Below, piece after piece: positions 3,409 through 32,006 of a stretch of DNA of 32,515 bases. Under the pieces are notes generated by a model. The model was not told the DNA's origin, did not search any database, and was given only the letters and a program-made list of their open reading frames with translations. The number at the start of each line of letters is the position of its first letter. Positions within the stretch are counted from its first letter, which is position 1. This DNA comes from a virus. The stretch covers positions 1 to 32,515 of the IMG/VR virus record IMGVR_UViG_3300023184_000352. The stretch is one strand, 5' to 3'. Position numbers and translations under genes: made by a program.

Positions 3409-3414
3409 TTACAC
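3409..3414 (-). promoter_or_regulatory. GTGTAA late-promoter-like element
   Basis: GTGTAAATAAATAGT precedes the ATG at 3399 with 9 nt of spacing. The element touches the TAA stop of the upstream tail gene (3417-3415) directly, so stop and promoter are fused. Confidence 0.6.
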
Positions 3415-5184: not shown

Positions 5185-5203
5185 TAATCCTTATATAGGA
5201 TTA
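5185..5203 (-). terminator. Inverted repeat between fibre and tail genes
   Basis: TAATCCT-TATAT-AGGATTA, 7-bp perfect arms and a 5-nt loop, lies just downstream of the stop of the fibre gene at 5212. It overlaps three bases of the GTGTAA element. It may weaken read-through or shape the leader of the next gene. Confidence 0.35.
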
Positions 5204-5206
5204 CAC
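5201..5206 (-). promoter_or_regulatory. GTGTAA late-promoter-like element, long spacing
   Basis: GTGTAATCCTATATAAGG begins 27 bases before the ATG at 5178 (22-nt gap). Here a leader of about 14 nt with AAGG motifs would be made, so this is one of three exceptions to the 6-11-nt spacing. Confidence 0.55.
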
Positions 5207-7933: not shown

Positions 7934-8212
7934 TTATACTTTGCTCCAATCGGTTAAAATTGGTATAGCATACCAATTTCCTTGTGTTCCATTTCCGCTA
8001 GAACATATATAAAAATATTGATTATCCCATGCGACTTGACCACTATATCCCGCGCTATTGGCTGCTAATGGAGGATTGTTAGAACCAATTCTAACTCCTG
8101 CATTAAGATTTACTTCTGAAATATTTCCAGTAATTCTAGGATATCTAAGATCTAATTGTCCAGAATTAGTTAATTGTTCTGTAAAAATCTGTAAACCATT
8201 AAATGTGCGCAT
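7934..8212 (-). CDS. Small fibre-associated protein (block B)
   Basis: 92 residues. The first 24 (MRTFNGLQIFTEQLTNSGQL, then DLRY) match the 98-residue protein at 11061-11357 exactly. The second half has the module NSAGYSGQVAWDNQYFYIC followed by a Gly/Asn loop and W, which also ends both long fibres. Each copy stands directly before its fibre gene, so it is probably a fibre component, adaptor or assembly partner. It is the first gene of its unit, with GTGTAA 8 nt before the ATG inside a perfect hairpin. Function unknown. Confidence 0.7.
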   Translation of the reverse strand: MRTFNGLQIFTEQLTNSGQLDLRYPRITGNISEVNLNAGVRIGSNNPPLAANSAGYSGQVAWDNQYFYICSSGNGTQGNWYAIPILTDWSKV

Positions 8213-8213
8213 C

Positions 8214-8236
8214 TAGTGATTTACACTAAATCACTA
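8214..8236. terminator. Perfect 10-bp hairpin with the GTGTAA element at its loop
   Basis: TAGTGATTTA-CAC-TAAATCACTA: arms of 10 perfectly paired bases and a 3-nt loop, between the stop of the 937-residue fibre gene (8241) and the ATG at 8212. It could end transcripts from upstream, and the late-promoter-like hexamer spans its loop and one arm. No U-run is obvious. Confidence 0.5.
8221..8226 (-). promoter_or_regulatory. GTGTAA late-promoter-like element
   Basis: GTGTAAATCACTAG then ATG at 8212, spacing 8 nt, no Shine-Dalgarno sequence. It lies in the loop and 3' arm of the hairpin at 8214-8236. Confidence 0.65.
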
Positions 8237-11365: not shown

Positions 11366-11371
11366 TTACAC
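11366..11371 (-). promoter_or_regulatory. GTGTAA late-promoter-like element (divergent pair, minus side)
   Basis: GTGTAAATTAGATC then ATG at 11357, spacing 8 nt. Its mirror element on the plus strand lies at 11390-11395, 18 bp away. Confidence 0.65.
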
Positions 11372-13475: not shown

Positions 13476-13481
13476 TTACAC
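13476..13481 (-). promoter_or_regulatory. GTGTAA late-promoter-like element, long spacing
   Basis: Directly abuts the terminase stop codon (13484-13482), 22 nt before the portal ATG at 13453. A second AT-rich hexamer, TATAAA, lies closer to the ATG, so the actual start point is uncertain. Confidence 0.5.
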
Positions 13482-15326
13482 TTATTTAATCATTATCGGA
13501 GAAAAAGTGTTGGATATTTGTTCTTTTTGCTGCGTCATTAAGTCATTATAAGACTTTAAACCCCAATTGGCTAACATAAATGCAGAATAATTATCTTTTC
13601 TAGCTTTATTAGCGGAGGCGCTTCTTTTTAAATGTTGAGGTAAATCAAACGATTGAGTACCTCTACTAGTAGCAGAATGTTCAATTAATACGCATTGTTT
13701 TTTAGTTTGATAAATGAAATCATCTTGATGTTCTATAAAATCAAGCATTTCCCAGTCTTTTTTATCTTCAGTTTTTAATAATTCCATTGGTAATCTTAAT
13801 GAAAATTGAGAATTAAAGAAATCATCTGAAGCTGAAGTTTTGCTTGCAAACCAAACTTTTTTATAATCTATACATGCTTGAAGATGTTCGTTTGCTCTTC
13901 TTATGAAATTACTAGTAAATACTTGATTAAAACATATTCTTTTATTTTCTAAATTATATTCATTTTTAGCTTTTCTTAGCATTTGATTATAATCTTCGCC
14001 TTCTAAATCTGAATCAAAGTTGAAACAATTTATTTCAAGTTTATTATTTTTGAATAGCTCTGATTGATTTGCTGAAGCTAAGAATACATCTGCTCCCGCA
14101 TTATCCATAACAATTAAATGAATATCAAAATTAGTCAATAAATAATAAAAATAATTAACATGATTTTTTAAATTTCCTAATCCAGCATAAGTGTGAACTA
14201 AAGTTCCTTGTCTAGTGGTTTCATCTATTTCTAAAACTGCCATAGCGAAATAATCTGCATTTGGACTATCACTCATATTAGGGTCGATTCCAAGAATATA
14301 TTTTTTATTTGGTTGACCTTTCATTAAAGTATGTGGACTTTCTCCATTTTTAATTGTGCAATCTTCCATTTTTTTAGCATTAAAATAACTATCACTACCA
14401 TCTGTAAATCTAGCGCAATATTCTCTTAAAAAACTACTATGACTTGATCCACCAGCCTGAGCTTCTTCAATGATTGTTTTATCTATCATTTCTTCTGGTA
14501 AAGCTTCGTAACTTAATTGACTAACGAAATACTTGGCTTCACTTTTATCTTTTTCTAAAATTTTATCACACCATTCATTATAAGTCTTATAAAGATTTTC
14601 GAATGTATAACTTGCCGATGATAGAGCTATCATTTTACTTGTATTCTCAAATACCATTCTTTCTTCTGGCTTCATGATTCCTTCTGAGATAAGTTTATCT
14701 TCGTATTCTCTTATTTCCATTCGCTCTTTCATATTTTGTGGAGCGACTAAGAATGGCATCAACACATTTTTAATAATCTCTTCTGGAAGAAGTAGAAACT
14801 CGTCAAGGACTAGAACATTAGCGCGAAATCCTCGGATTTTTTCACCATTCAATGGGATAGCTACAATACTTCCTCCATTAATCTGCCATTCAAATTGATC
14901 ATTTCTTTTAGCTTTTGCTCCAAAGCATTGGGCTAATAATTCTGCCCCTGGACTATCTACGATTTTTTCTAAATTATTAAATATAAATCTTGCAGTTCTA
15001 AATGTTGGTCCAGCTATAAGTATTTTAGTATTAGGTTCAAATACGCATTGAAGAAAACAAAATACGGCTGCCATGAAAGATTTTCCGCAACCACGACCAA
15101 ATACGCACATATTAAAATTTCTATTCATTAATGCTTTGAGATGAATTTCTTGATATGCAGCTAATTTAACTCCGCTAATCAATTCAGTTGTAAATCCAAG
15201 ATTAGCTCTAAGAAATTTAGCAAGAGATATTTTAGCTTCTTTGTCATTGAGATAGCCCTTTAATTCTGCTAATTCAGCATTTATGTCTTTCACTTCTCTT
15301 ATATATTTATCTGGACAATATATCAT
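13482..15326 (-). CDS. terL: Large terminase subunit (ATPase-nuclease)
   Basis: 614 residues, near the length of T4 gp17. It pumps DNA into the procapsid and cuts the concatemer. Walker A is GRGCGKS at 77-83 and Walker B VLVLDEF at 171-177 with Asp175-Glu176; a coupling motif SSAS is at 236-239. The RNase H-like nuclease half has acidic motifs GIDPN (Asp348), VMDNAGAD (Asp408) and RKDNYSA (Asp578). The start overlaps the stop of the ERCC4-type nuclease gene by 4 bp (ATGA). It is the last gene of the operon that begins at 18474, all read from a promoter without GTGTAA. Confidence 0.95.
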   Translation of the reverse strand: MIYCPDKYIREVKDINAELAELKGYLNDKEAKISLAKFLRANLGFTTELISGVKLAAYQEIHLKALMNRNFNMCVFGRGCGKSFMAAVFCFLQCVFEPNTKILIAGPTFRTARFIFNNLEKIVDSPGAELLAQCFGAKAKRNDQFEWQINGGSIVAIPLNGEKIRGFRANVLVLDEFLLLPEEIIKNVLMPFLVAPQNMKERMEIREYEDKLISEGIMKPEERMVFENTSKMIALSSASYTFENLYKTYNEWCDKILEKDKSEAKYFVSQLSYEALPEEMIDKTIIEEAQAGGSSHSSFLREYCARFTDGSDSYFNAKKMEDCTIKNGESPHTLMKGQPNKKYILGIDPNMSDSPNADYFAMAVLEIDETTRQGTLVHTYAGLGNLKNHVNYFYYLLTNFDIHLIVMDNAGADVFLASANQSELFKNNKLEINCFNFDSDLEGEDYNQMLRKAKNEYNLENKRICFNQVFTSNFIRRANEHLQACIDYKKVWFASKTSASDDFFNSQFSLRLPMELLKTEDKKDWEMLDFIEHQDDFIYQTKKQCVLIEHSATSRGTQSFDLPQHLKRSASANKARKDNYSAFMLANWGLKSYNDLMTQQKEQISNTFSPIMIK

Positions 15327-16258
15327 AAAAGTTTCATATCATAAGCTAATTGCAAATCTACTCTGCTATAAAAACATTTACTTGCAAATATAGATTCAAT
15401 TACTCTTTTCATTTCATTTCTGCCATCAACAAATAAAAATTGTAGATTACTATACTCTTGAATTAAAGATCTAACATTATGAAATATATACTCTGGCGTA
15501 GCTTTTATTTTTTTACTAATATGAGGTAGATATTGAAAGCTTAAAGCGCTGGCAAGTTTCTCTTCAACGATAACTATTAAATATGAATTATTCTTTTGAG
15601 CTTTTTCAATTTCATTTTTAAACCTATCAAAATTCTTAATACTCAACGTGCTTATGAAGTCGCTTAGACTTTTTCTTTCTATATAACAATTACAATTTTC
15701 ATTACTGCAAGAATAATCTCCAAATGAAAGCGTCTTAATTTCAAAAGGAATATCAAACTTTAACCAGCTCTGTTCTCTTGTATCTACGTATATGGTATCT
15801 TTAGTTGTTAATTTATTTTGAAATTGAGAGGTGATATTATTTGGGTGAATAAACTTATTTTCTAATCCTATGCTAGAACATATATCATAATAATCATTAA
15901 ATATTTTATTGTAAAAAATAATAGAAGGACTCATTATAGTTCTCAACTCTATTTGTGTTGGAGAATATATTAAGTTTTTATCTTTTTTTCTTTTAATTAA
16001 AAGATTCTTGCAATATTCTTGAGCCTTATCTAATGATTGTTCTTTCAACCATTTTTTCATATTATTCTTATCGTTAAAGTCGCTGTTTAGATATTGATCT
16101 TTTGTTTTGAAATTAATTGTTTCTCCTGTAAGAAGATCTTTCTTGGGATAATATGTATGATAGTATTTTTCTTTATTTAAACCATAACCTCTAAGCGCGA
16201 AATGAAGACTTTTTTCGTCTTTGAACTCTTTACCATCAACTTTACATATTACGCTCAT
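15323..16258 (-). CDS. ERCC4/XPF-type nuclease with an N-terminal phage domain
   Basis: 311 residues. Residues 157-235 fit the ERCC4 nuclease: VDTREQ (Asp159, Glu162), L.FGDYS (Asp181), ERKSLSDF (Glu194, Lys196) and then a helix with NFDRFKNEIEKA. These are the metal-binding GDx(n)ERKxxxD residues of the XPF/Mus81 fold. The first 150 residues (CKVDGKEFKDEKSLHFALR, YYHTYYPKKD) may be a separate DNA-binding part. It overlaps TerL and the upstream gene by 4 bp each, so it is coupled to packaging. Likely role: cutting branched DNA before or during packaging, as T4 endonuclease VII does. The role is inference; the nuclease motifs are visible. Confidence 0.75.
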   Translation of the reverse strand: MSVICKVDGKEFKDEKSLHFALRGYGLNKEKYYHTYYPKKDLLTGETINFKTKDQYLNSDFNDKNNMKKWLKEQSLDKAQEYCKNLLIKRKKDKNLIYSPTQIELRTIMSPSIIFYNKIFNDYYDICSSIGLENKFIHPNNITSQFQNKLTTKDTIYVDTREQSWLKFDIPFEIKTLSFGDYSCSNENCNCYIERKSLSDFISTLSIKNFDRFKNEIEKAQKNNSYLIVIVEEKLASALSFQYLPHISKKIKATPEYIFHNVRSLIQEYSNLQFLFVDGRNEMKRVIESIFASKCFYSRVDLQLAYDMKLL

Positions 16259-17349
16259 CCATTTAAAATCTCATCCTTTGAGATCCCCAAAATTTTACAT
16301 TTTATTTCATCCATTGTTGAGAGTCTATCTATTTCTTTTTCGATAGTCTTTTTTCTCATCTCTGCCATTTTTAATAATTTCGCCCTACTCTCTTCTTCTT
16401 TCCACATTTGTACAAGATTGATAATAGAAGCGGTTTCTTTAACTTGTTTACTTAATTTATCACTTCTTTTTACTTTAAGATCATTATTTAATTTTTGCTG
16501 ACGATTAACGCAATCATTATATTCCTTGCGAGCCGTGCTACTTGCTTCTACAAGAGCCATTGGGATTTTACCATCTTCTTGCATAGATAATTCTATTTGA
16601 TGTTGTAAAACATTAATTGTTTGTTGAATATTAGAAGATATAACAACCTCTGTGCAGAGTACAATATATTGATCTACTTCTTCTTGAGAAAGATCTCCTT
16701 TATCGTAAGTATATCTTACGAAACTACTTTCAAATAATTCTCTATCTGGCTCATTATCATAAATATTCATTTGATGAGTAAATCTATGAGTATTCATATA
16801 ACCAATTAATGCATTAATTTCTTTTTTATGTTTATGGGTAAGTTTATTTTTATCAATTCCATCTAAAACATATTTATTAATTTTTGCTATTGTTCTTTCT
16901 TCACTACGAGGAGGCTTATATCCTTCTGTAGAGGCGTTTTCATTTTCAGTATTATTGAATTTAATATTACTTGGTATATTTTTCATCTGCTCAAGAACAC
17001 TTCTTGTTTCTTGGCATAGATTCGTTAATGATTCGTTTTTAAATAAAATCTTTGCCATTTCTAAACCAGTCATAGTATGACAATTATTACTGATGTATTC
17101 TTTTTGTTCTATTGTTAATTCTATTAAACCTTTAGCTTCGTATTCATGGCTTTTTTTTGGTTTAATTTGTCTTGAAGCTAAAAATTGTTTAACAGCTTTT
17201 CCTTCTTTACTTCTTCCATCTAAATCATCTCTATCAAAAGCTAATTTTACTAGTTCTGCTAAAGATGGAGGATTACTTGGTCTATCATTCCACTCTTTTA
17301 AGAGTTTTAATTGTTGCTCTTCTGTTAGTATTAGTATATCGTCTGACAT
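16255..17349 (-). CDS. Conserved phage protein, possible small terminase or DNA-binding partner
   Basis: 364 residues. The N-terminal part has SLAELVKLAFDRDDLDGRSK then EGKAVKQFLASR, followed by a helix-turn-helix-like stretch at about 77-103 (LTIEQKEYISNNCHTMTGLE). The C-terminal 120 residues are charged helices and probably coiled coil. It sits between the sigma-factor and nuclease/terminase genes and is coupled to them (1-4 bp). A small terminase subunit typically has an N-terminal DNA-binding region plus coiled coil and lies before TerL, so that is my best guess. It is larger than usual for that family and other DNA-binding functions are possible. Confidence 0.5.
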   Translation of the reverse strand: MSDDILILTEEQQLKLLKEWNDRPSNPPSLAELVKLAFDRDDLDGRSKEGKAVKQFLASRQIKPKKSHEYEAKGLIELTIEQKEYISNNCHTMTGLEMAKILFKNESLTNLCQETRSVLEQMKNIPSNIKFNNTENENASTEGYKPPRSEERTIAKINKYVLDGIDKNKLTHKHKKEINALIGYMNTHRFTHQMNIYDNEPDRELFESSFVRYTYDKGDLSQEEVDQYIVLCTEVVISSNIQQTINVLQHQIELSMQEDGKIPMALVEASSTARKEYNDCVNRQQKLNNDLKVKRSDKLSKQVKETASIINLVQMWKEEESRAKLLKMAEMRKKTIEKEIDRLSTMDEIKCKILGISKDEILNG

Positions 17350-17350
17350 A

Positions 17351-18034
17351 TTAACGTATATCTATTTCGCCGCTATAAATATATTTCTTAACTTTTTGTA
17401 TAATTGATTTTTTTAGATTTTTAATTTGTTTGTATCCAGCAGATCTATTTTTTTCCGTAGTTCTATAACCCATTATTTTGGCAGCTTCTTCTTCTGTTTT
17501 ATGTTGAACATAAACTAATTCATAAAATTTCCATTCAGAAAGTTTAAGTATTTTAGACATTTTATTATGAATATTTTCTGCGCTTTTTTCAATATTGATA
17601 TTATCATGCACCATATTGTGAACTTCTTGAGTGTGATTTTCTAGGGCTACTGGAAGTTTTATATCGTAAGCTGATTTTTTTCTTTTTTCCCACTTTTTAT
17701 AAATAGAGCATGATCCGCATTGTTTACCATATATTTTGCATAGATCTTCACCTTCTGCTGCTGAACATTTTAAACAAGGTCTAGAATAATTTCCATAATT
17801 ATTGCGAATCAAATTTTTAATTTGATTGCTTATGATTCTATTGACCCAAGGAGCAAGTGGTTGCTTTTGGTCGTAAAGTGCCCATTTATTATTTATATGT
17901 ATTCTTAAAATTTGAGAAACATCATTAAAATCCATCCAAGCAAGCGCAGTTAGATTCCATTTATTTTTCCTCTTATAGATTTCTTGATCTATTTCAGAAA
18001 TTTTTTCCTCAAACTTAGCCTTCTTTTTGCTCAT
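17351..18034 (-). CDS. Divergent sigma factor (T4 gp55-like late sigma candidate)
   Basis: 227 residues. Residues about 27-80 resemble sigma region 2: ALAWMDFNDVSQILRIHINN then LAPWVNRIISNQIKNLIRNN, the helix set that binds core RNA polymerase and melts the -10. Residues 158-217 look like a region-4-type helix-turn-helix (LSEWKFYELVYVQHKTEEEA). Between them is a cysteine cluster (Cys87, 90, 99, 106, 109) that probably binds zinc. In T4-like phages a short sigma (gp55) directs late transcription from a -10-only motif. This gene is placed before the packaging genes and has no GTGTAA element of its own. Function is inferred from motif pattern and regulatory logic. Confidence 0.62.
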   Translation of the reverse strand: MSKKKAKFEEKISEIDQEIYKRKNKWNLTALAWMDFNDVSQILRIHINNKWALYDQKQPLAPWVNRIISNQIKNLIRNNYGNYSRPCLKCSAAEGEDLCKIYGKQCGSCSIYKKWEKRKKSAYDIKLPVALENHTQEVHNMVHDNINIEKSAENIHNKMSKILKLSEWKFYELVYVQHKTEEEAAKIMGYRTTEKNRSAGYKQIKNLKKSIIQKVKKYIYSGEIDIR

Positions 18035-18474
18035 TACTTTGATCTTCTGATAGATCCAGCTTCTTTTTTGAAATCTTCTAAGATTTTTTTATTTGAAATT
18101 TTTTGAGCTTTTGCCTTGCCACCATTTCTTTTGCTTGATTTTGATGGATTTTTTATTAAATCTCCTATTTTTTCTCCTCTAGGTTTTTCTGCAAAAGTTT
18201 CTACCTCTAAATGATCTATATTAGGAACATGATTAACTCCATTATCATAATCATCATTATCGTAATTTTCTTCATTATGATTTTCAATATTTTTGAAATT
18301 TCTTAATTTTTGATTTAGAGTAGGGCGACTACGATTAGTCGTATTATTAGCTATAACAGGTTTATCTTGAACAGTTTGATTACCATCAAATGATTTACCA
18401 CAATTACAGCAAAATTGGGGTTTTTTTAAAGAATAATCTGTTGGAGATCCACAAGAAGTACAATATCTTTTCAT
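18034..18474 (-). CDS. Zinc-ribbon protein, first gene of the sigma/terminase operon
   Basis: 146 residues. The N-terminus has a zinc ribbon: YCTSCG (Cys5, Cys8) and FCCNCG (Cys22, Cys25). The remainder is polar and low in complexity, with a basic C-terminus rich in Lys/Arg (KSSKRNGGKAKAQKISNKK). Nucleic-acid binding or contact with RNA polymerase is plausible; no family beyond the ribbon is recognised. Its stop shares one base with the ATG of the sigma-factor gene, so both are coupled. The upstream region has an AT-rich sigma70-like promoter rather than GTGTAA. Confidence 0.7.
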   Translation of the reverse strand: MKRYCTSCGSPTDYSLKKPQFCCNCGKSFDGNQTVQDKPVIANNTTNRSRPTLNQKLRNFKNIENHNEENYDNDDYDNGVNHVPNIDHLEVETFAEKPRGEKIGDLIKNPSKSSKRNGGKAKAQKISNKKILEDFKKEAGSIRRSK

Positions 18475-18482
18475 TTAATATA

Positions 18483-18512
18483 ATTATATATTAAATATTA
18501 ATTTAAATCCAA
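18483..18512 (-). promoter_or_regulatory. Possible sigma70-type promoter of the sigma/terminase operon
   Basis: Minus-strand TTGGAT (18512-18507), an 18-bp spacer and TATAAT (18488-18483) lie 8 bp before the ATG at 18474. The region is almost pure A/T, so chance matches are likely. No GTGTAA is present here. Confidence 0.4.
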
Positions 18513-19310: not shown

Positions 19311-19316
19311 TTACAC
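19311..19316 (-). promoter_or_regulatory. GTGTAA late-promoter-like element
   Basis: GTGTAATAACATAT then ATG at 19302, spacing 8 nt, no Shine-Dalgarno sequence. It directly follows the TAA stop of the carbonic anhydrase gene (19319-19317). Confidence 0.65.
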
Positions 19317-19958
19317 TTAATTTAAAAATTTTACTTCGCCAGTTTCTACATCATAAACTCCACCAAGAATCTGTAATTTACCTTCTTTATTTAATGAATT
19401 TAATAATTCACTATTATCTAAAACTGCTTTCATTTGATATCTTACGTTTGCTTCAATTGCTTGATTTAATAAATCTTCATCTACTTTAGCTTTTGCCATT
19501 TCAACAAATGGTTTTAAAGCTTTCATAAGTATTTTAGCAAGTTTGCCAATATTTCCAGGAACTGGTTTTCCAGCAAGAGTCGCTTCAACTGCGCCACATT
19601 TTGTGTGACCTAATACAAGAATTGTATGAACTCCAAGAACTGCTGCTCCATATTCAAATGTTGCGCTACCTTCTTCACTATCAAAATTACCTGCATCACG
19701 AACAACGAATAAATCACCGACTCCCATATCAAAAATCATTTCAACTGGCACCCTGGAATCTGCACAACCTAAAACTCCAATTTGAGGAGCTTGACCATAT
19801 TCACCAGTTTTAACTACTTTTTCTCTTTGCCAAGTATGAGCGACTGCTCTTCCAGTAATAAAACGGGTATTTCCAGCTTTTAATTGTTCAAGAGCATTTT
19901 TTTGAGTAATAGATGCTTTTGTTATTTCAAATTCGAATATATTGCTCTTTTTATTCAT
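19317..19958 (-). CDS. Beta-class carbonic anhydrase
   Basis: 213 residues, normal length for the family. It interconverts CO2 and bicarbonate using zinc. The ligands and catalytic dyad are present: GCADSR with Cys65, Asp67 and Arg69, and GHTKCGAV with His118 and Cys121; DAGN at 88-91 is also conserved. There is no signal peptide, so it acts in the cytoplasm unless packaged in the virion. It is an intact, host-derived metabolic gene inside a phage structural region. GTGTAA 8 nt before the ATG places it with late genes rather than early takeover genes. On the other side of that promoter region is a 24-residue membrane peptide on the plus strand. The family call is firm; its benefit to the phage is unknown. 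Confidence 0.95.
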   Translation of the reverse strand: MNKKSNIFEFEITKASITQKNALEQLKAGNTRFITGRAVAHTWQREKVVKTGEYGQAPQIGVLGCADSRVPVEMIFDMGVGDLFVVRDAGNFDSEEGSATFEYGAAVLGVHTILVLGHTKCGAVEATLAGKPVPGNIGKLAKILMKALKPFVEMAKAKVDEDLLNQAIEANVRYQMKAVLDNSELLNSLNKEGKLQILGGVYDVETGEVKFLN

Positions 19959-19966
19959 CTATATGA

Positions 19967-19972
19967 TTACAC
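19967..19972 (-). promoter_or_regulatory. GTGTAA late-promoter-like element (divergent pair, minus side)
   Basis: GTGTAATCATATAG then ATG at 19958, spacing 8 nt. ATTACAC at 19966-19972 and GTGTAAT at 19987-19993 form an inverted pair separated by 14 bp. Confidence 0.65.
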
Positions 19973-20655: not shown

Positions 20656-20678
20656 AAATAGTATTACACTCTATTTAT
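20654..20678. terminator. Perfect 8-bp hairpin with GTGTAA in its loop
   Basis: ATAAATAG-TATTACACT-CTATTTAT: 8-bp arms and a 9-nt loop that contains the whole GTGTAA element. It covers the end of the upstream membrane-protein gene and the first base pairs of the fibre-like gene. Compare 8214-8236. Confidence 0.4.
20664..20669 (-). promoter_or_regulatory. GTGTAA late-promoter-like element
   Basis: GTGTAATACTATTT then ATG at 20655, spacing 8 nt, no Shine-Dalgarno sequence; within a hairpin loop. Confidence 0.65.
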
Positions 20679-20945: not shown

Positions 20946-20951
20946 TTACAC
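20946..20951 (-). promoter_or_regulatory. GTGTAA late-promoter-like element
   Basis: GTGTAAGCCTATGT then ATG at 20937, spacing 8 nt, no Shine-Dalgarno sequence. It lies 3 bp after the stop of the FecR-domain gene. Confidence 0.6.
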
Positions 20952-20954
20952 ATC

Positions 20955-21878
20955 TTATCTGGTCATAGGTGGACCAAGATCGCTTCCTATTGGTGTGGCT
21001 AGTGATGGATTAGGCGACGAAGTTACAGGTGGCACAAGATTGGGATTTAGTAAAGGATTAAATTGAGGATTGAATTGTTGAGAACCAGAAATTGCTCCTG
21101 CTCCACTACCTACTGGCGCTTCAGAACCAGCAGCAGTATCAATATCTGGAACATCACCTCCATCAACTTTACCTAAAGCAGTTGCACTATCAATTCTACC
21201 AGATACTACATCATTTATTTCACTAGCGAAAGATATGCCTTGTGCTTTTGCAGTTTCTTGTGCGCTAGCAACACCTTTGATTAAAGCATCATTAGCAAGT
21301 GGTGCTAATCCTTTTTCAGTAAACAAAGGTGATGAAGATACTAGATCTTTTACATCAACACTCTTTGGACTTGAAGATGTCATTCCATTTGGTGTTGCAG
21401 AAATCCCTTCGCCAGATTGTAATGTCATTGATTTGCCGTTTTTATCTGTTACAACAACTCCAGTAGTTGTTTCAGCAACAGCAATATGAGTGGCATCACC
21501 TTTTACATCAAACATTACAGTACTACCACTTATCGCAGCAGTAACGCTTCCTGTTGTTACAGTTATAGTTTCTGTTTCTGGATCTTTTGAAACAAGAAAT
21601 GTCCCTTTATCACATTTTACTAATCTCTCTTGTTTAACGAATGAAAATAAAGCATTTGCACCTATGCGAGTTACTGATTTATCATCTAATGATAATTCGC
21701 ACATGCTCTGCTCGCCAGTTCCAACTTGAGCATCTGATTCTATTTTATCATTTAAAACTGCTGAGACTTTGTTTGTGTTTTGAACTGTATATACGTTATT
21801 TTTTAAAAATGATACAAATGATGCAGAAGCACTATGAGTTGATAATGCTAATATAGCTAGATAAATTAATGTTCTCAT
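20955..21878 (-). CDS. Secreted FecR-domain protein
   Basis: 307 residues. Signal peptide at 1-20 (MRTLIYLAILALSTHSASA, cut after ASA). Residues about 40-170 fit the FecR domain: VGTGEQSMCELSLDDKSVTR, IGANALFSF, KGTFLVSKD, ITVTTGSVTAAISGSTV, TTGVVVTDKNGKSM. Known FecR domains are periplasmic beta structures that sense signals for anti-sigma systems; stand-alone secreted forms are frequent in exosortase-bearing bacteria. The C-terminal 80 residues are Pro/Gly/Ser/Asn-rich and disordered. It lies after the PEP-CTERM genes and two small membrane proteins. The ATG is preceded by GTCTAATAGATT, a one-base variant of the late motif. Unusual in a phage; probably host-derived. Confidence 0.8.
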   Translation of the reverse strand: MRTLIYLAILALSTHSASASFVSFLKNNVYTVQNTNKVSAVLNDKIESDAQVGTGEQSMCELSLDDKSVTRIGANALFSFVKQERLVKCDKGTFLVSKDPETETITVTTGSVTAAISGSTVMFDVKGDATHIAVAETTTGVVVTDKNGKSMTLQSGEGISATPNGMTSSSPKSVDVKDLVSSSPLFTEKGLAPLANDALIKGVASAQETAKAQGISFASEINDVVSGRIDSATALGKVDGGDVPDIDTAAGSEAPVGSGAGAISGSQQFNPQFNPLLNPNLVPPVTSSPNPSLATPIGSDLGPPMTR

Positions 21879-21884
21879 AATCTA

Positions 21885-21890
21885 TTAGAC
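21885..21890 (-). promoter_or_regulatory. Variant late element GTCTAA
   Basis: GTCTAATAGATT then ATG at 21878, spacing 6 nt. It differs by one base from GTGTAATAGATT found before the gene at 31227. It might have been recruited for an acquired gene. Confidence 0.35.
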
Positions 21891-21914
21891 AGGTGAAGTT
21901 AAAATTCATTAGAT

Positions 21915-22229
21915 TTAATTTGTGCATAAATTTGTTTTTAATCTTATTCTTTTTCTCATATAACCTACGCATATATAATGCTCATTTGTGTCTATAACTG
22001 TTTTGGGTTTTGGTTGTAAGCTTAACATCCAAGGTTGACTATTTTCACCTATTGGTTCTGCTTTGCATATAAAAGATGAGCCTTCATCAACTGGCACATA
22101 TTCAAAATCAAGACCAAGATTATATTGCTTTATAGGTCCAACATTTTTTGTATAGAAAAACGCACAAACTGTACCTATTGGAAATAATAATAAATAAAGT
22201 AAGACCTCTGATCTTATGAATGACTTCAC
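21915..22229 (-). CDS. Small protein with N-terminal membrane anchor
   Basis: 104 residues. A hydrophobic anchor lies at about 8-26 (VLLYLLLFPIGTVCAFFY), followed by a domain of about 75 residues outside the cytoplasm with two cysteines that could pair (SFICKAEP and HYICVGYM), in short beta-type segments. I do not recognise the family. Its start overlaps the stop of the preceding gene by 4 bp (ATGA). It is the last gene of the operon that holds the PEP-CTERM proteins, so it may assist their export or anchoring; that is inference. Confidence 0.6.
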   Translation of the reverse strand: MKSFIRSEVLLYLLLFPIGTVCAFFYTKNVGPIKQYNLGLDFEYVPVDEGSSFICKAEPIGENSQPWMLSLQPKPKTVIDTNEHYICVGYMRKRIRLKTNLCTN

Positions 22230-22474
22230 TTTTTTTGGACTTGACCAGCTGCTGTTTGTATATCTAAATTATTTTTAGTTTGTTTAGCCACAATTGATCC
22301 TATCATAGTTAATACTAAAACGCAAGCAAAAACTAATCCATAATGTGTTTTTTCTTGGGCTTTCTTTTTGGCCCTATATTGGTGAAAATTACTTATAAAG
22401 TCTTCTGTATCCCTTTTGGATGGAAGGCTCTTTTCGTAATTATTTAATAACATATTTTTCAATTGATTATCCAT
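22226..22474 (-). CDS. Small single-pass membrane protein
   Basis: 82 residues. A charged cytoplasmic part (1-43, basic near FHQYRAKKKAQEK) precedes one membrane helix at about 45-64 (YGLVFACVLVLTMIGSIVAK) and a short outside tail. This layout is like a small anti-sigma or accessory membrane subunit, but there is no specific motif. It overlaps the C-terminus of the upstream PEP-CTERM gene by 8 bp and the downstream gene by 4 bp, so all three are translationally coupled. Confidence 0.6.
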   Translation of the reverse strand: MDNQLKNMLLNNYEKSLPSKRDTEDFISNFHQYRAKKKAQEKTHYGLVFACVLVLTMIGSIVAKQTKNNLDIQTAAGQVQKK

Positions 22475-24947
22475 TCTTTATATTATCTTGTTTTTGTATC
22501 AGATTCAATTTAGTTTTTGCATTTTTTCTCCTTATTACTCTAAGTGCTAATAAGGAAGTAATTGCAAATGTCATAAGAGAACCTGTTGAAGGTTCTGGTA
22601 TAACACCAATTGTACCATCTGTAGTGAAGTTACTAACATTCCACTTAAGATCTGTACTAGGAGTATTCAAATTAGGAAGAGCAGCTTCTAATACTGCTAC
22701 ATCAAATGTGCTCATGTCAGCTAAACCCCAATCAAATAAATCATATGTATTTCCATCTGCATATGTATAATTATCTAATGTCTCAAATGTAAATGCTGTA
22801 TTTGCTCCTAATGTTAACAAGCTAGTTACATTAATTGCATCATAGGTAGTACCTCTGGTAGTTGGTGCAGCTAATTGGAATTGGAATGTTCCGTTACTTC
22901 CATTTAACTCATAAGCAGTTAGCAGACCAGGACTATTGCCAGGGGCCACAGTACCACCATTTAGAGTTAAGCCCTGCACACTACCAGAGCCACCTAATGT
23001 ACCTCCTGTATTTACTAAAACATCTCCTGCACTTCCATTTACTGATAGTAAACTTCCATTGACAGTAGTGCTACCAATAACACCACCAGTATTAACTGTT
23101 GCTATGCCAGAATTAACTATAACAGTTCCAGCTGTTCCTTCTACTAATAAAGTACCACCACTAACAGTACTAGTACCTAAGAGACTACCGCCTGATTTTA
23201 CATTGAGTCTACCACCAGTATTAACTGTTGATATACCAGTTCTTCCATATATATCTAATGTACTACCATTAATAGTTGTAGCGCCAGAATTTCCTCCAAA
23301 ATTTACAGTAGCTGTACCAGAATTTATAACAGTCTGTCCTACAGAACCTGATACTAATAAAGTACCACCATCAACAGTAGCTTTGGAAGAAGTACCACCT
23401 GTTTTAACATCAAACGTACTTCCACTAGCAATAGTTGTCTCTCCTACTGTACCACTATTAAGTAAGCTTCCTCCTGTTAGAGTAGAGTTGCCAAGAAAAC
23501 CACCACTATAAACTGTAGCGGTTCCTGCGGACATAGAAAAAGCGCTAGCAGTTCCTCTTAAATCAAAAGTACCACCACCTTGCGTTACTGTTCCTGCTGT
23601 TCCATCTACTGATGCTATAGTAGTAACACCAATAGAAAAATTACCAATAGTTCCAGTACTATCAACTATCAATCTTCCGCTATTAGCAGCTACTGTACCA
23701 GCTGTACCTTTAACTCTCAAAGTACCTCCTGACACTACAGCAGCACTAGAAGCAATAGAGCCAGCAGTATCAACAACAAATGTGCCCTCTTGTATAGTAG
23801 TTTCTCCATTGTAAGCATTGATTGCTTGCAAGGTTGCTGTTCCAGTTCCTGACTTGGTTAAACCTCTGAGTGCAGCAGCTGTGTTAAACAGTGAACCTTT
23901 GAAAATAAAATCACCTACACCACCCACAAGACTATTATCTGCTGTGGTGCCTCCAATGTCCATGGTGCCATCAAACTGTAAAGTTAGATTGGCGCTGTTG
24001 TTGAACAATCTTCTGCCACCACTGGTACCTGCAGATGCAGTGAGTATGTTTGCAGCATTAGTAAATTGTAACAATGTTGCATATCCACCATGATTGGTGA
24101 AAGTCATATTGCCACCTTGATATTGATTCACAACATAAGTGGTAGCAGCAACAGAATTAGATCCTGCCAGATCCACAGTGCTCATGTTGGCGAGACTGCT
24201 AGACCCTTTGAAACTATTAAGAACAGATAACCCTACAACTGAATTGACTACTAGTTTTGAAGTGCCATTTGACATGGTCACTAAACCTTGACCCACCCCA
24301 GTGCCACCATTCACAATGACTGTGCCTCCACCTGTTATTTCAAAACCACCAGCCAGTGTGTTGGTGCCATTCATTGTGACAGTACCTGCTCCTATGTGTT
24401 TAACTATACCAGCAGTAGCTGTCCCTCCTTGTTTCAATTCATTGTTGAATGTGAATGCGCCATCTCCTGCCAGAGTTAATGTTCTGGATGTACTAGAAGA
24501 TGCAGTTGTAAGAGAAGCCACATTATTGAATACTAATGTACCACCTGTTGCTTGAAACCAAGTGTTACTGTTGTTAGCATTTTCCACTAATATGTTAAAT
24601 GTTTGAATGGCAGTAGAATTATTTGTAATTCCTGCTCTAGATGATAATGTTTGTGCACCATTGAAGCTATTAATTATATATGGATTTGCATTGGCTAAGA
24701 ATGTTATGTTCTGTGCAGCTCTGGTTGATGTTAGTACAACAGCATTATTATTGGCTCCAAAATTACCAAACTGAATTTCATCTGTCGTAGTACTTGAGCT
24801 TGTTGCAGAAGGTTGTATTCCATTTGTCCAGCTAGCTGGTGATGTCCAATTTGTGCCAGTATTATTCCACAAGAAAACTACTGCTTGGGAATTATTAGCT
24901 ATAGTTAATAGTGCTGTTGTTAGTATTGTTGTTATTAGTTTTTTCAT
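22467..24947 (-). CDS. PEP-CTERM surface protein with autotransporter-type beta-strand repeats, large copy
   Basis: 826 residues. Signal peptide 1-22 (MKKLITTILTTALLTIANNS, cut near SQA). The body is Gly/Thr/Ser/Asn-rich beta-helix with repeats such as GGTLLVSGSVGQTVINSG and TATVNSGG; LNGGTVAPGNSPGLLTA at about 670 is typical of autotransporter-associated repeat proteins. The C-terminus has the PEP-CTERM signal: PEPST at 784-788, a helix at about 790-805 and RRK at 806-808, then an unusually long polar tail of about 18 residues. In the known system exosortase cuts such proteins and fixes them at the surface. GC content is much higher than in the phage genes (30 of 60 bases in 24301-24360). 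GAGG lies before the ATG. It follows its paralogue by 5 bp. Confidence 0.9.
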   Translation of the reverse strand: MKKLITTILTTALLTIANNSQAVVFLWNNTGTNWTSPASWTNGIQPSATSSSTTTDEIQFGNFGANNNAVVLTSTRAAQNITFLANANPYIINSFNGAQTLSSRAGITNNSTAIQTFNILVENANNSNTWFQATGGTLVFNNVASLTTASSSTSRTLTLAGDGAFTFNNELKQGGTATAGIVKHIGAGTVTMNGTNTLAGGFEITGGGTVIVNGGTGVGQGLVTMSNGTSKLVVNSVVGLSVLNSFKGSSSLANMSTVDLAGSNSVAATTYVVNQYQGGNMTFTNHGGYATLLQFTNAANILTASAGTSGGRRLFNNSANLTLQFDGTMDIGGTTADNSLVGGVGDFIFKGSLFNTAAALRGLTKSGTGTATLQAINAYNGETTIQEGTFVVDTAGSIASSAAVVSGGTLRVKGTAGTVAANSGRLIVDSTGTIGNFSIGVTTIASVDGTAGTVTQGGGTFDLRGTASAFSMSAGTATVYSGGFLGNSTLTGGSLLNSGTVGETTIASGSTFDVKTGGTSSKATVDGGTLLVSGSVGQTVINSGTATVNFGGNSGATTINGSTLDIYGRTGISTVNTGGRLNVKSGGSLLGTSTVSGGTLLVEGTAGTVIVNSGIATVNTGGVIGSTTVNGSLLSVNGSAGDVLVNTGGTLGGSGSVQGLTLNGGTVAPGNSPGLLTAYELNGSNGTFQFQLAAPTTRGTTYDAINVTSLLTLGANTAFTFETLDNYTYADGNTYDLFDWGLADMSTFDVAVLEAALPNLNTPSTDLKWNVSNFTTDGTIGVIPEPSTGSLMTFAITSLLALRVIRRKNAKTKLNLIQKQDNIKNG

Positions 24948-24952
24948 AAATT

Positions 24953-26746
24953 TTATTTTTTCCTCTTTCTAAATGCAAGAAATAATGCAACTGAAGCTAG
25001 GGTACTTGTATGAGGTTCAGGAATGACACTTATTGTACCATCTGTGGTAAATTTGTTAACATCCCATGCAAGGTTTGTATTGGGTGTATCTAAATTAGGA
25101 AGTGCTGCTTGTAGAACAGAAACATCAAATCCAGTAGTATCAATTGACGACCAATTAAACAAATCATATGTATCGTTTTGCTGAAATGCATACCCTCCAT
25201 TAACTTGAAATATCCATGCAGTGTTGGTTCCTAGAGTTAATAAATTCGTTACATTAATAGCATCATATGTTACACCTCTAGTGGTGGGTGCACCTAATTC
25301 AAAAACAAAGCTACCATTGGATGCATTCAAGTTTGCAGCAGTTAGTAAGCCAGGACTATTACCAGGCGCTATGGTACCACCATTGAGCAATACATTACCA
25401 ACAGTCCCTGAACCGCTTAATGTACCACCTGCATTAACCAATACATTGCCAGCTGTACCATTTACAGATAACAAACTGCCATTAATAGTTGTTGTGCCAA
25501 TTATACCTCCACTGTTCACAGTGGCTGTTCCTGTGTTAACTATGGTCTCACCTCCATTACCAGATACTAATAAAGTTCCTCCTGACACAGTAGATTTTGT
25601 TACCGTACCTGCAATATTTACAGTACTGTTTGTACTTGCTACTACTGCGCTCAACAAACTGCCATTCACATTTAAAATAGCATTATTAACTATGGTGTCA
25701 CCTGTGTAGGTATTATTACCTGCAAGGGTTAATGATCTGGTAGTAGAAGATGAATTAACATTTAAGCCAGTACCATTAACTATGTTTCCATTAAAAGTTG
25801 CAGAGTTTGCTAATGTGATAGCTCTGGTTCCATTGTTAAGATCAATACCACCTGTTAATATAATGGCACTACCATATCCACCTAGAGTAAAGTCACCACC
25901 AAATATAAAATTGTTAGCCAATGTTCTGGTTATGGTAGCAGAAGCCATGGTACCTCCATTAAGAGTTACTGTACCCAAACCAAGAGCTGAATTGTTACCC
26001 ACAGAGAGTATACCAGCATTTAAAATGGTACCACCAGAATAATTGCCTGTAGCATTAATAGCTAGAGTAGCTAGTGCATTGTTCATGGTGATGCCCAATT
26101 GCACGTTGTTAGTATTTGAAGAAGCTTTGTTATCTGCTCCACTTGCCAACACATAACCACCTGTACCTGTGCCGCCAAACGTTACCATGGCAATATTACC
26201 ATTATTAACTGCTGTGCTACCTAAAGTGTTTTGTAGAGTCAACAAACTAGATGAATTGTTTGCAATGGTTGTGTTAACAGCAGTTCTTAAAGTAACACCA
26301 CCAAAATTAGTTGAAGAAGTCACTGTACCAATGGTCACAGGCCCAGCTCCTGCTGCTACTGTGAAACCTCCAGACCCTATTTCCAATGTATTGGATGAGT
26401 TGGTTAGGGTAGATGATCTGTAAAATGTGGTAGGGCCTGCATTTAGCATGGTAATAGAATTGAATATTCTGTTTGCAGATGCTAATGAATAATAAATAGT
26501 GGGGCTGTTAGTAGTATTATTAGCAGTAGCAACATTAAAGTACACATCATCTGCAGCGCCAGGTACTACAGCACCTCCAACAAATATGGATGCATTAGTT
26601 GTCCAATTACCTGCTGTACCAAGTGAGCCACCTGAATTACCTTGAAAGTAATAAGTTGCTGCTTGTGTGCTATTGAGCATTAAAAAAGCCGCAATTAATT
26701 TTGCGGCTGTGCTTTTTAGTAACCTTTTTGTTAGGTTTATTTTCAT
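24953..26746 (-). CDS. PEP-CTERM surface protein with autotransporter-type beta-strand repeats, small copy
   Basis: 597 residues. Signal peptide 1-30 (cut near STQA-ATY). Beta-helix repeats fill the body, with LAGNNTYTGDTIVNNAILNV, a textbook autotransporter-associated repeat, and GGTIAPGNSPGLLTA. The C-terminus is PEPHT (576-580), a short helix and RKRKK (593-597), a complete PEP-CTERM sorting signal. The last about 200 residues closely match those of the 22467-24947 protein, so the two are tandem paralogues. AAGGAG lies 12 nt before the ATG. GC content is raised (26 of 60 in 25381-25440, against 14 of 60 in 12301-12360). No exosortase gene is in the window, so sorting would use the host enzyme. 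Confidence 0.9.
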   Translation of the reverse strand: MKINLTKRLLKSTAAKLIAAFLMLNSTQAATYYFQGNSGGSLGTAGNWTTNASIFVGGAVVPGAADDVYFNVATANNTTNSPTIYYSLASANRIFNSITMLNAGPTTFYRSSTLTNSSNTLEIGSGGFTVAAGAGPVTIGTVTSSTNFGGVTLRTAVNTTIANNSSSLLTLQNTLGSTAVNNGNIAMVTFGGTGTGGYVLASGADNKASSNTNNVQLGITMNNALATLAINATGNYSGGTILNAGILSVGNNSALGLGTVTLNGGTMASATITRTLANNFIFGGDFTLGGYGSAIILTGGIDLNNGTRAITLANSATFNGNIVNGTGLNVNSSSTTRSLTLAGNNTYTGDTIVNNAILNVNGSLLSAVVASTNSTVNIAGTVTKSTVSGGTLLVSGNGGETIVNTGTATVNSGGIIGTTTINGSLLSVNGTAGNVLVNAGGTLSGSGTVGNVLLNGGTIAPGNSPGLLTAANLNASNGSFVFELGAPTTRGVTYDAINVTNLLTLGTNTAWIFQVNGGYAFQQNDTYDLFNWSSIDTTGFDVSVLQAALPNLDTPNTNLAWDVNKFTTDGTISVIPEPHTSTLASVALFLAFRKRKK

Positions 26747-29292: not shown

Positions 29293-29298
29293 TTACAC
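29293..29298 (-). promoter_or_regulatory. GTGTAA late-promoter-like element
   Basis: GTGTAATAATATTT then ATG at 29284, spacing 8 nt, no Shine-Dalgarno sequence. This is the only late element seen before the operon 29284-21915, so it would also drive the PEP-CTERM genes. Confidence 0.65.
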
Positions 29299-31235: not shown

Positions 31236-31241
31236 TTACAC
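31236..31241 (-). promoter_or_regulatory. GTGTAA late-promoter-like element
   Basis: GTGTAATAGATTAT then ATG at 31227, spacing 8 nt, no Shine-Dalgarno sequence. TCTATT/AATAGA arms (31232-31237 and 31245-31250) form a small hairpin around it. Confidence 0.65.
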
Positions 31242-32000: not shown

Positions 32001-32006
32001 TTACAC
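32001..32006 (-). promoter_or_regulatory. GTGTAA late-promoter-like element, long spacing
   Basis: GTGTAATTATTTGTAG begins 24 bases before the phoH ATG at 31982 (18-nt gap). One of three long-spaced cases. Confidence 0.5.

Follow-up and report, generated by a model that had tools for sequence, protein, structure and literature searches.

A phage gene at 17351–18034 encodes a sigma-70-family factor with a four-cysteine insert between regions 2 and 4 (hereafter, the four-Cys sigma), and this factor is probably the reader of GTGTAA, a word placed just upstream of many gene starts in the same phages. The window analyzed here, 32,515 nucleotides (32.5 kb) in length, corresponds to one linear virus record of IMG/VR, and the phage group carrying the factor is large, aquatic, and apparently uncultured. 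One promoter word and a candidate reader together give this group a readable late-gene code, the early/late split becomes visible from sequence, and two features can be predicted: late mRNAs that are almost leaderless and a metal-binding linker in the sigma factor. No description of such a system was found in the open-licence papers that were searched.

The sigma gene and its product

The coordinates given in the earlier note hold, and the strand is minus: the ORF (227 aa, ATG start) lies there, and the plus strand is rich in stop codons. The minus-strand gene order is a 146-aa zinc-ribbon-like protein, the sigma factor, a 364-aa protein, an ERCC4 nuclease, the large terminase (TerL), and a putative portal; the three genes directly downstream of the sigma gene span 13482–17349 (minus strand). 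The 146-aa protein (18034–18474, minus strand), which opens the operon, was named from CxxC pairs seen by eye, and its Pfam matches are weak and under the curated cut-offs. It is a possible transcription partner of the sigma factor. The 364-aa protein (16255–17349), function unassigned, adjoins the sigma gene at 244 loci, and small terminase is our guess for it. TerL lies within 6 kb of the sigma gene at all 174 loci with enough room.

Related genes were found in at least 587 IMG/VR stretches and at three loci in genome bins. At two of the latter, a terminase relative adjoins the sigma gene, and the third locus resembles IMG/VR virus records. A tblastn search of 50,697 phage records gave no match. 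One apparent relative on a gut bacterial contig (L168) was a false match to a frame of another gene.

Against Pfam Sigma70_r2, the window protein alone scores weakly (E 0.0027, residues 34–79), and all 80 non-redundant relatives match this family (best E 1.5e-8). Sigma70_r4_2 is matched by 9 of the 80 and PHROG 1740, "RNA polymerase sigma factor," by 56. Region 2 was assigned to residues 34–80 (17795–17935, minus strand) and the region 4 helix-turn-helix to residues 148–221 (17372–17593, minus strand). An earlier AlphaFold model from 11 sequences was poor (pLDDT 65). The model from 80 sequences has a pLDDT of 82 and a pTM of 0.40, so that the domains can be trusted and their mutual placement cannot. 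Foldseek and VIA searches of the PDB with this model returned sigma factors as the leading matches, with none reaching E 0.001 in Foldseek. Because the whole-chain rmsd is large, the domain-level matches bear the weight; region 4 alone matches 3vfz with a Z score of 8.8 and an rmsd of 1.9 over 62 residues. Sequence searches of the PDB, single-sequence and profile, gave no sigma factor at a significant E-value. By fold and sequence, the product is a member of the sigma-70 family, and it is predicted to bind core RNA polymerase and open promoters. The region-2-like and region-4-like parts recognized in the earlier note are thus borne out by both the family matches and the structure model.

The insert occupies residues 87–109 (17708–17776, minus strand), with the pattern CxxC-x8-C-x9-C in the window protein and longer loops in some relatives. 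Cys87, Cys90, Cys99, and Cys109 are invariant in all 80 relatives. Five cysteines had been counted between the two regions, and all five are present in the window protein; the fifth, Cys106, is variable (Cys in 40 of the 80 and Asp in 26). The conserved four-cysteine ligand set agrees with the metal-binding insertion proposed earlier. The insert probably binds a metal; the metal itself is a prediction, and zinc would be the candidate.

Placement of GTGTAA and the late genes

As a word, GTGTAA is not over-represented in the window (20 copies versus 18.0 ± 4.1 expected), and what stands out is its position. Thirteen of the 16 minus-strand copies sit 5–25 nt upstream of gene starts, a position that held a mean of 0.36 and a maximum of 5 copies in 20,000 random placements. 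All 13 are on the minus strand. A gap of 8 nt separates the copies at 8221–8226, 11366–11371, 19311–19316, 19967–19972, 20664–20669, 20946–20951, 29293–29298, and 31236–31241 from ATGs at 8212, 11357, 19302 (DUF5856), 19958 (carbonic anhydrase), 20655, 20937, 29284, and 31227, respectively. The gap is 6 nt for 1921–1926 (ATG 1914), 9 nt for 3409–3414 (ATG 3399), and 18 nt for 32001–32006 (ATG 31982, phoH). It is 22 nt for both 5201–5206 (ATG 5178) and 13476–13481 (ATG 13453), the latter preceding the 628-aa gene after TerL, the putative portal.

Some further features of the window were recorded. The GTGTAA-led carbonic anhydrase gene (19317–19958; PF00484, E 1.6e-36) is present in just one other related locus. 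The stretch 20955–26746 holds cargo-like genes without GTGTAA, namely one for a FecR-like protein and two for repeat proteins whose ends are PEP-CTERM-like (named by eye). There are two duplicated gene pairs, 7934–8212/11061–11357 and 28679–29284/29325–30932, and the members of the first share similar GTGTAA leaders.

The first 97 loci, pooled with the window, gave 1157 unique upstream regions, of which 301 contain GTGTAA. The gap to the ATG is seldom below 6 nt, has its mode at 8–9 nt, is usually 6–13 nt, and extends up to 23 nt. When the sigma family is binned by identity, GTGTAA ranks first among positioned upstream words in each bin, including that below 45% identity (59 seen versus 1.1 expected). 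In the window and five large sigma-bearing genomes, 77 of 694 gene starts have the motif (5.9 expected), as against 2 of 829 (2.4 expected) in seven phages without the sigma gene: HTVC008M, P-SSM2, T4, two records with distant terminase matches, and two crAss-like phages. These counts are approximate, as genes were called with a simple ATG-only ORF finder. Gene starts were counted because raw GTGTAA-N6–13-ATG counts are a poor control, by which P-SSM2 and HTVC008M look enriched. A profile search for the four-Cys sigma was empty in the control phages, in a run that had no positive control; the single-protein version was positive in all ten sigma-bearing records. The motif is the TAA stop codon of the upstream gene in just 3 of the 77 cases, and this trivial origin was rejected. 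The co-occurrence of gene and motif anticipated in the earlier note therefore holds, both across the family and against the controls. TerL relatives carry the four-Cys sigma in 56 of 56 and 32 of 32 cases; gene and motif are co-inherited within one clade, so that their co-occurrence is partly a single event.

In five relatives of 112–133 kb (L326–L357), GTGTAA heads 14–25 genes each, in clusters, and long blocks are free of it. The genes led by the motif include minor tail, virion structural, and endolysin genes, and "late" is judged here by such gene content. phoH and the gene for the ribonucleotide reductase small subunit are each GTGTAA-led five times in these relatives, and both are apparently expressed late or continuously. 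The motif-free blocks, picked by position, encode DNA polymerase, clamp loader, primase/helicase, ligase, thymidylate synthase, and RIIA/RIIB. Operon heads lacking the motif are rich in TTGACA (42 versus 2 in the reversed control) and carry TATAAT-like −10 elements, which would suit the host sigma. No multisubunit RNA polymerase beta gene was found in eight contigs of 112–162 kb.

As the earlier note had stated, GTGTAA is absent from the sigma operon of the window (18474 to 17351 and beyond). The operon leader reads TTGGAT-N18-TATAAT, with the putative host-type −10 at 18483–18488 (minus strand), 8 nt before the ATG, and the putative −35 at 18507–18512 (minus strand), 18 nt further upstream. 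Expression of the sigma by the host polymerase, also claimed earlier, accords with TATAAT in 86 of 137 unique sigma-operon leaders from relatives, and 18 of the 137 have GTGTAA in place of, or besides, TATAAT.

Candidate readers of GTGTAA

The closeness of GTGTAA to the ATG in most cases could mean that it is a signal for translation start and not a promoter. Several observations make this very improbable. The gap ranges up to 23 nt, and the motif depends on the type of gene junction: it is found at 7% of starts less than 15 nt from the upstream gene, 49% of those at 15–60 nt, and 30% of those with an opposite-strand neighbour (p = 2e-12 for the contrast). Shine-Dalgarno sequences, present at 0–2% with gaps of 5–17 nt, are back at 27% with gaps of 18–25 nt (19% in motif-less genes); their scarcity at gaps of 8–9 nt arises partly because the motif fills that space. 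Moreover, the host-type TATAAT promoters of the same phages lie at an equal distance from the ATG and are likewise near-leaderless in spacing. Aligned on the host TATAAT, the late word reads G-TGTAAT, with the G at −11. As a promoter element, GTGTAA stands without a −35 box: TTG is found at the corresponding position in 7.3% of sites against a background of 7.0%, and in 35.8% of TATAAT promoters. ACTTT at −43 to −39 (17 versus 2.4 expected) was considered as a distant −35 box and discarded, since many cases read as coding sequence for the TerL C terminus, which lies upstream of the following gene. In related loci, the reverse word TTACAC often lies 27–34 nt upstream of GTGTAA promoters, which suggests back-to-back late promoters.

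Here, we propose that the four-Cys sigma reads GTGTAA at late promoters. The host sigma would transcribe the zinc-ribbon/sigma operon early from its TATAAT promoter, and the phage sigma would then bind the host core RNA polymerase. The resulting holoenzyme would open promoters in which GTGTAA is the sole specific element, without a −35. Transcription would start at the ATG or a few bases before it; the usual gap of 6–13 nt and the missing Shine-Dalgarno sequences imply near-leaderless late mRNAs. We favor the four-Cys sigma because its gene leads into the packaging genes and, in some lineages, has GTGTAA in its own leader; this choice is a matter of judgement and not proof. Counting against it, the protein has a region 4, yet the −35 is absent at GTGTAA sites.

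These phages have a second sigma-like protein of ~200 aa, whose operon lies close to the gene for the ribonucleotide reductase large subunit (e.g., L331:2820–3446 in G001). It is core to the phages with the four-Cys sigma and occurs in most large relatives (G001–G003, G005–G007, and G011–G014) and in 282 IMG/VR stretches. No phage shown to carry just one of the two sigmas was found among the related contigs; where the second sigma is missing from a contig, the ribonucleotide reductase region is missing too, and such contigs are thus probably fragments. With both sigmas core, presence or absence cannot tell which of them reads GTGTAA. The second sigma has a more conventional sequence and a stronger match to phage sigma families (PHROG 351, 8e-14) than the four-Cys sigma. 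TGTAAT is one base off TATAAT, and a sigma70-like region 2 could read it. The second sigma may accordingly be considered as the reader, with the four-Cys sigma serving otherwise, for example, for a middle class of genes or as a helper. We regard this arrangement as unlikely, but it is the chief reason for doubt about the four-Cys sigma as the reader. GTGTAA is found in none of 62 unique second-sigma operon leaders, and its presence in 18 of 137 four-Cys sigma operons would fit autoregulation. In addition, the neighbours of the second sigma are nucleotide-metabolism genes, whereas those of the four-Cys sigma are packaging genes. Both points argue weakly for the four-Cys sigma.

Less probable again is a joint mode of recognition, by the two phage sigmas together, by a sigma with the zinc-ribbon protein, or by a host sigma that the phage redirects. 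The zinc-ribbon gene is immediately upstream of the sigma gene at 198 loci, and late transcription by several factors has a precedent in gp55/gp33/gp45 of T4 (PMC7892883). Such a complex is conjectural, however, and is superfluous for explaining the data.

For the four-Cys sigma as the reader, the insert may offer a way to dispense with the −35. In other sigma factors, the linker between regions 2 and 4 threads the RNA exit channel. Our tentative suggestion, which we hold to be doubtful, is that the insert is a zinc module in this linker that replaces the −35 contact, with the −10 word alone opening the promoter. If so, a bacterial-type sigma would have a TFIIB-like layout of metal module and linker.

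Comparison with known sigma factors

T4 gp55 consists of a region-2 domain, a helix-loop-helix, and a clamp-binding tail, without region 4, and T4 late promoters have a −10-like element alone and no −35 (PMC7892883). If the four-Cys sigma is the reader, it resembles gp55 as a phage late-gene factor acting at promoters with only a −10-like element; it differs in having region 4, which gp55 lacks. gp55 matches PHROG 234 (2.9e-69), which is absent among all 14 families matched by the 80 relatives of the four-Cys sigma. Comparison with gp55 by hhalign, which has little power when run on one sequence, gave nothing for either phage sigma, and a search for the sliding clamp (PF02916) gave no match in the relatives nor in the controls. 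The PHROG comparison and the presence of region 4 led us to abandon the description of the protein as a variant of the gp55 group.

In phiEco32 and 7-11, the host sigma70 acts first, followed by a phage sigma with its own short promoter word (PMC4331800), and the order proposed here is alike. Their word is a different one (with a TGATGT core in 7-11) and they have few promoters per genome, whereas the GTGTAA phages have many. ECF and other sigma-70 factors (SigH, SigL, and SigD of Mycobacterium tuberculosis and sigma28) share the architecture of region 2 plus region 4 and are the leading structural matches; the insert between the regions sets the four-Cys sigma apart, as would the −35-less promoters if it is the reader. 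For linker cysteines, the nearest precedent is found in CorE and CorE2 (ECF238) of Myxococcus xanthus, whose cysteines are metal-related and include a CXC motif in the linker of regions 2 and 4, and CorE also requires a C-terminal Cys-rich domain (PMC8999054). The four-Cys sigma likewise has cysteines in this linker, but they form a CxxC...C...C motif, and the window protein has no cysteine past residue 109.
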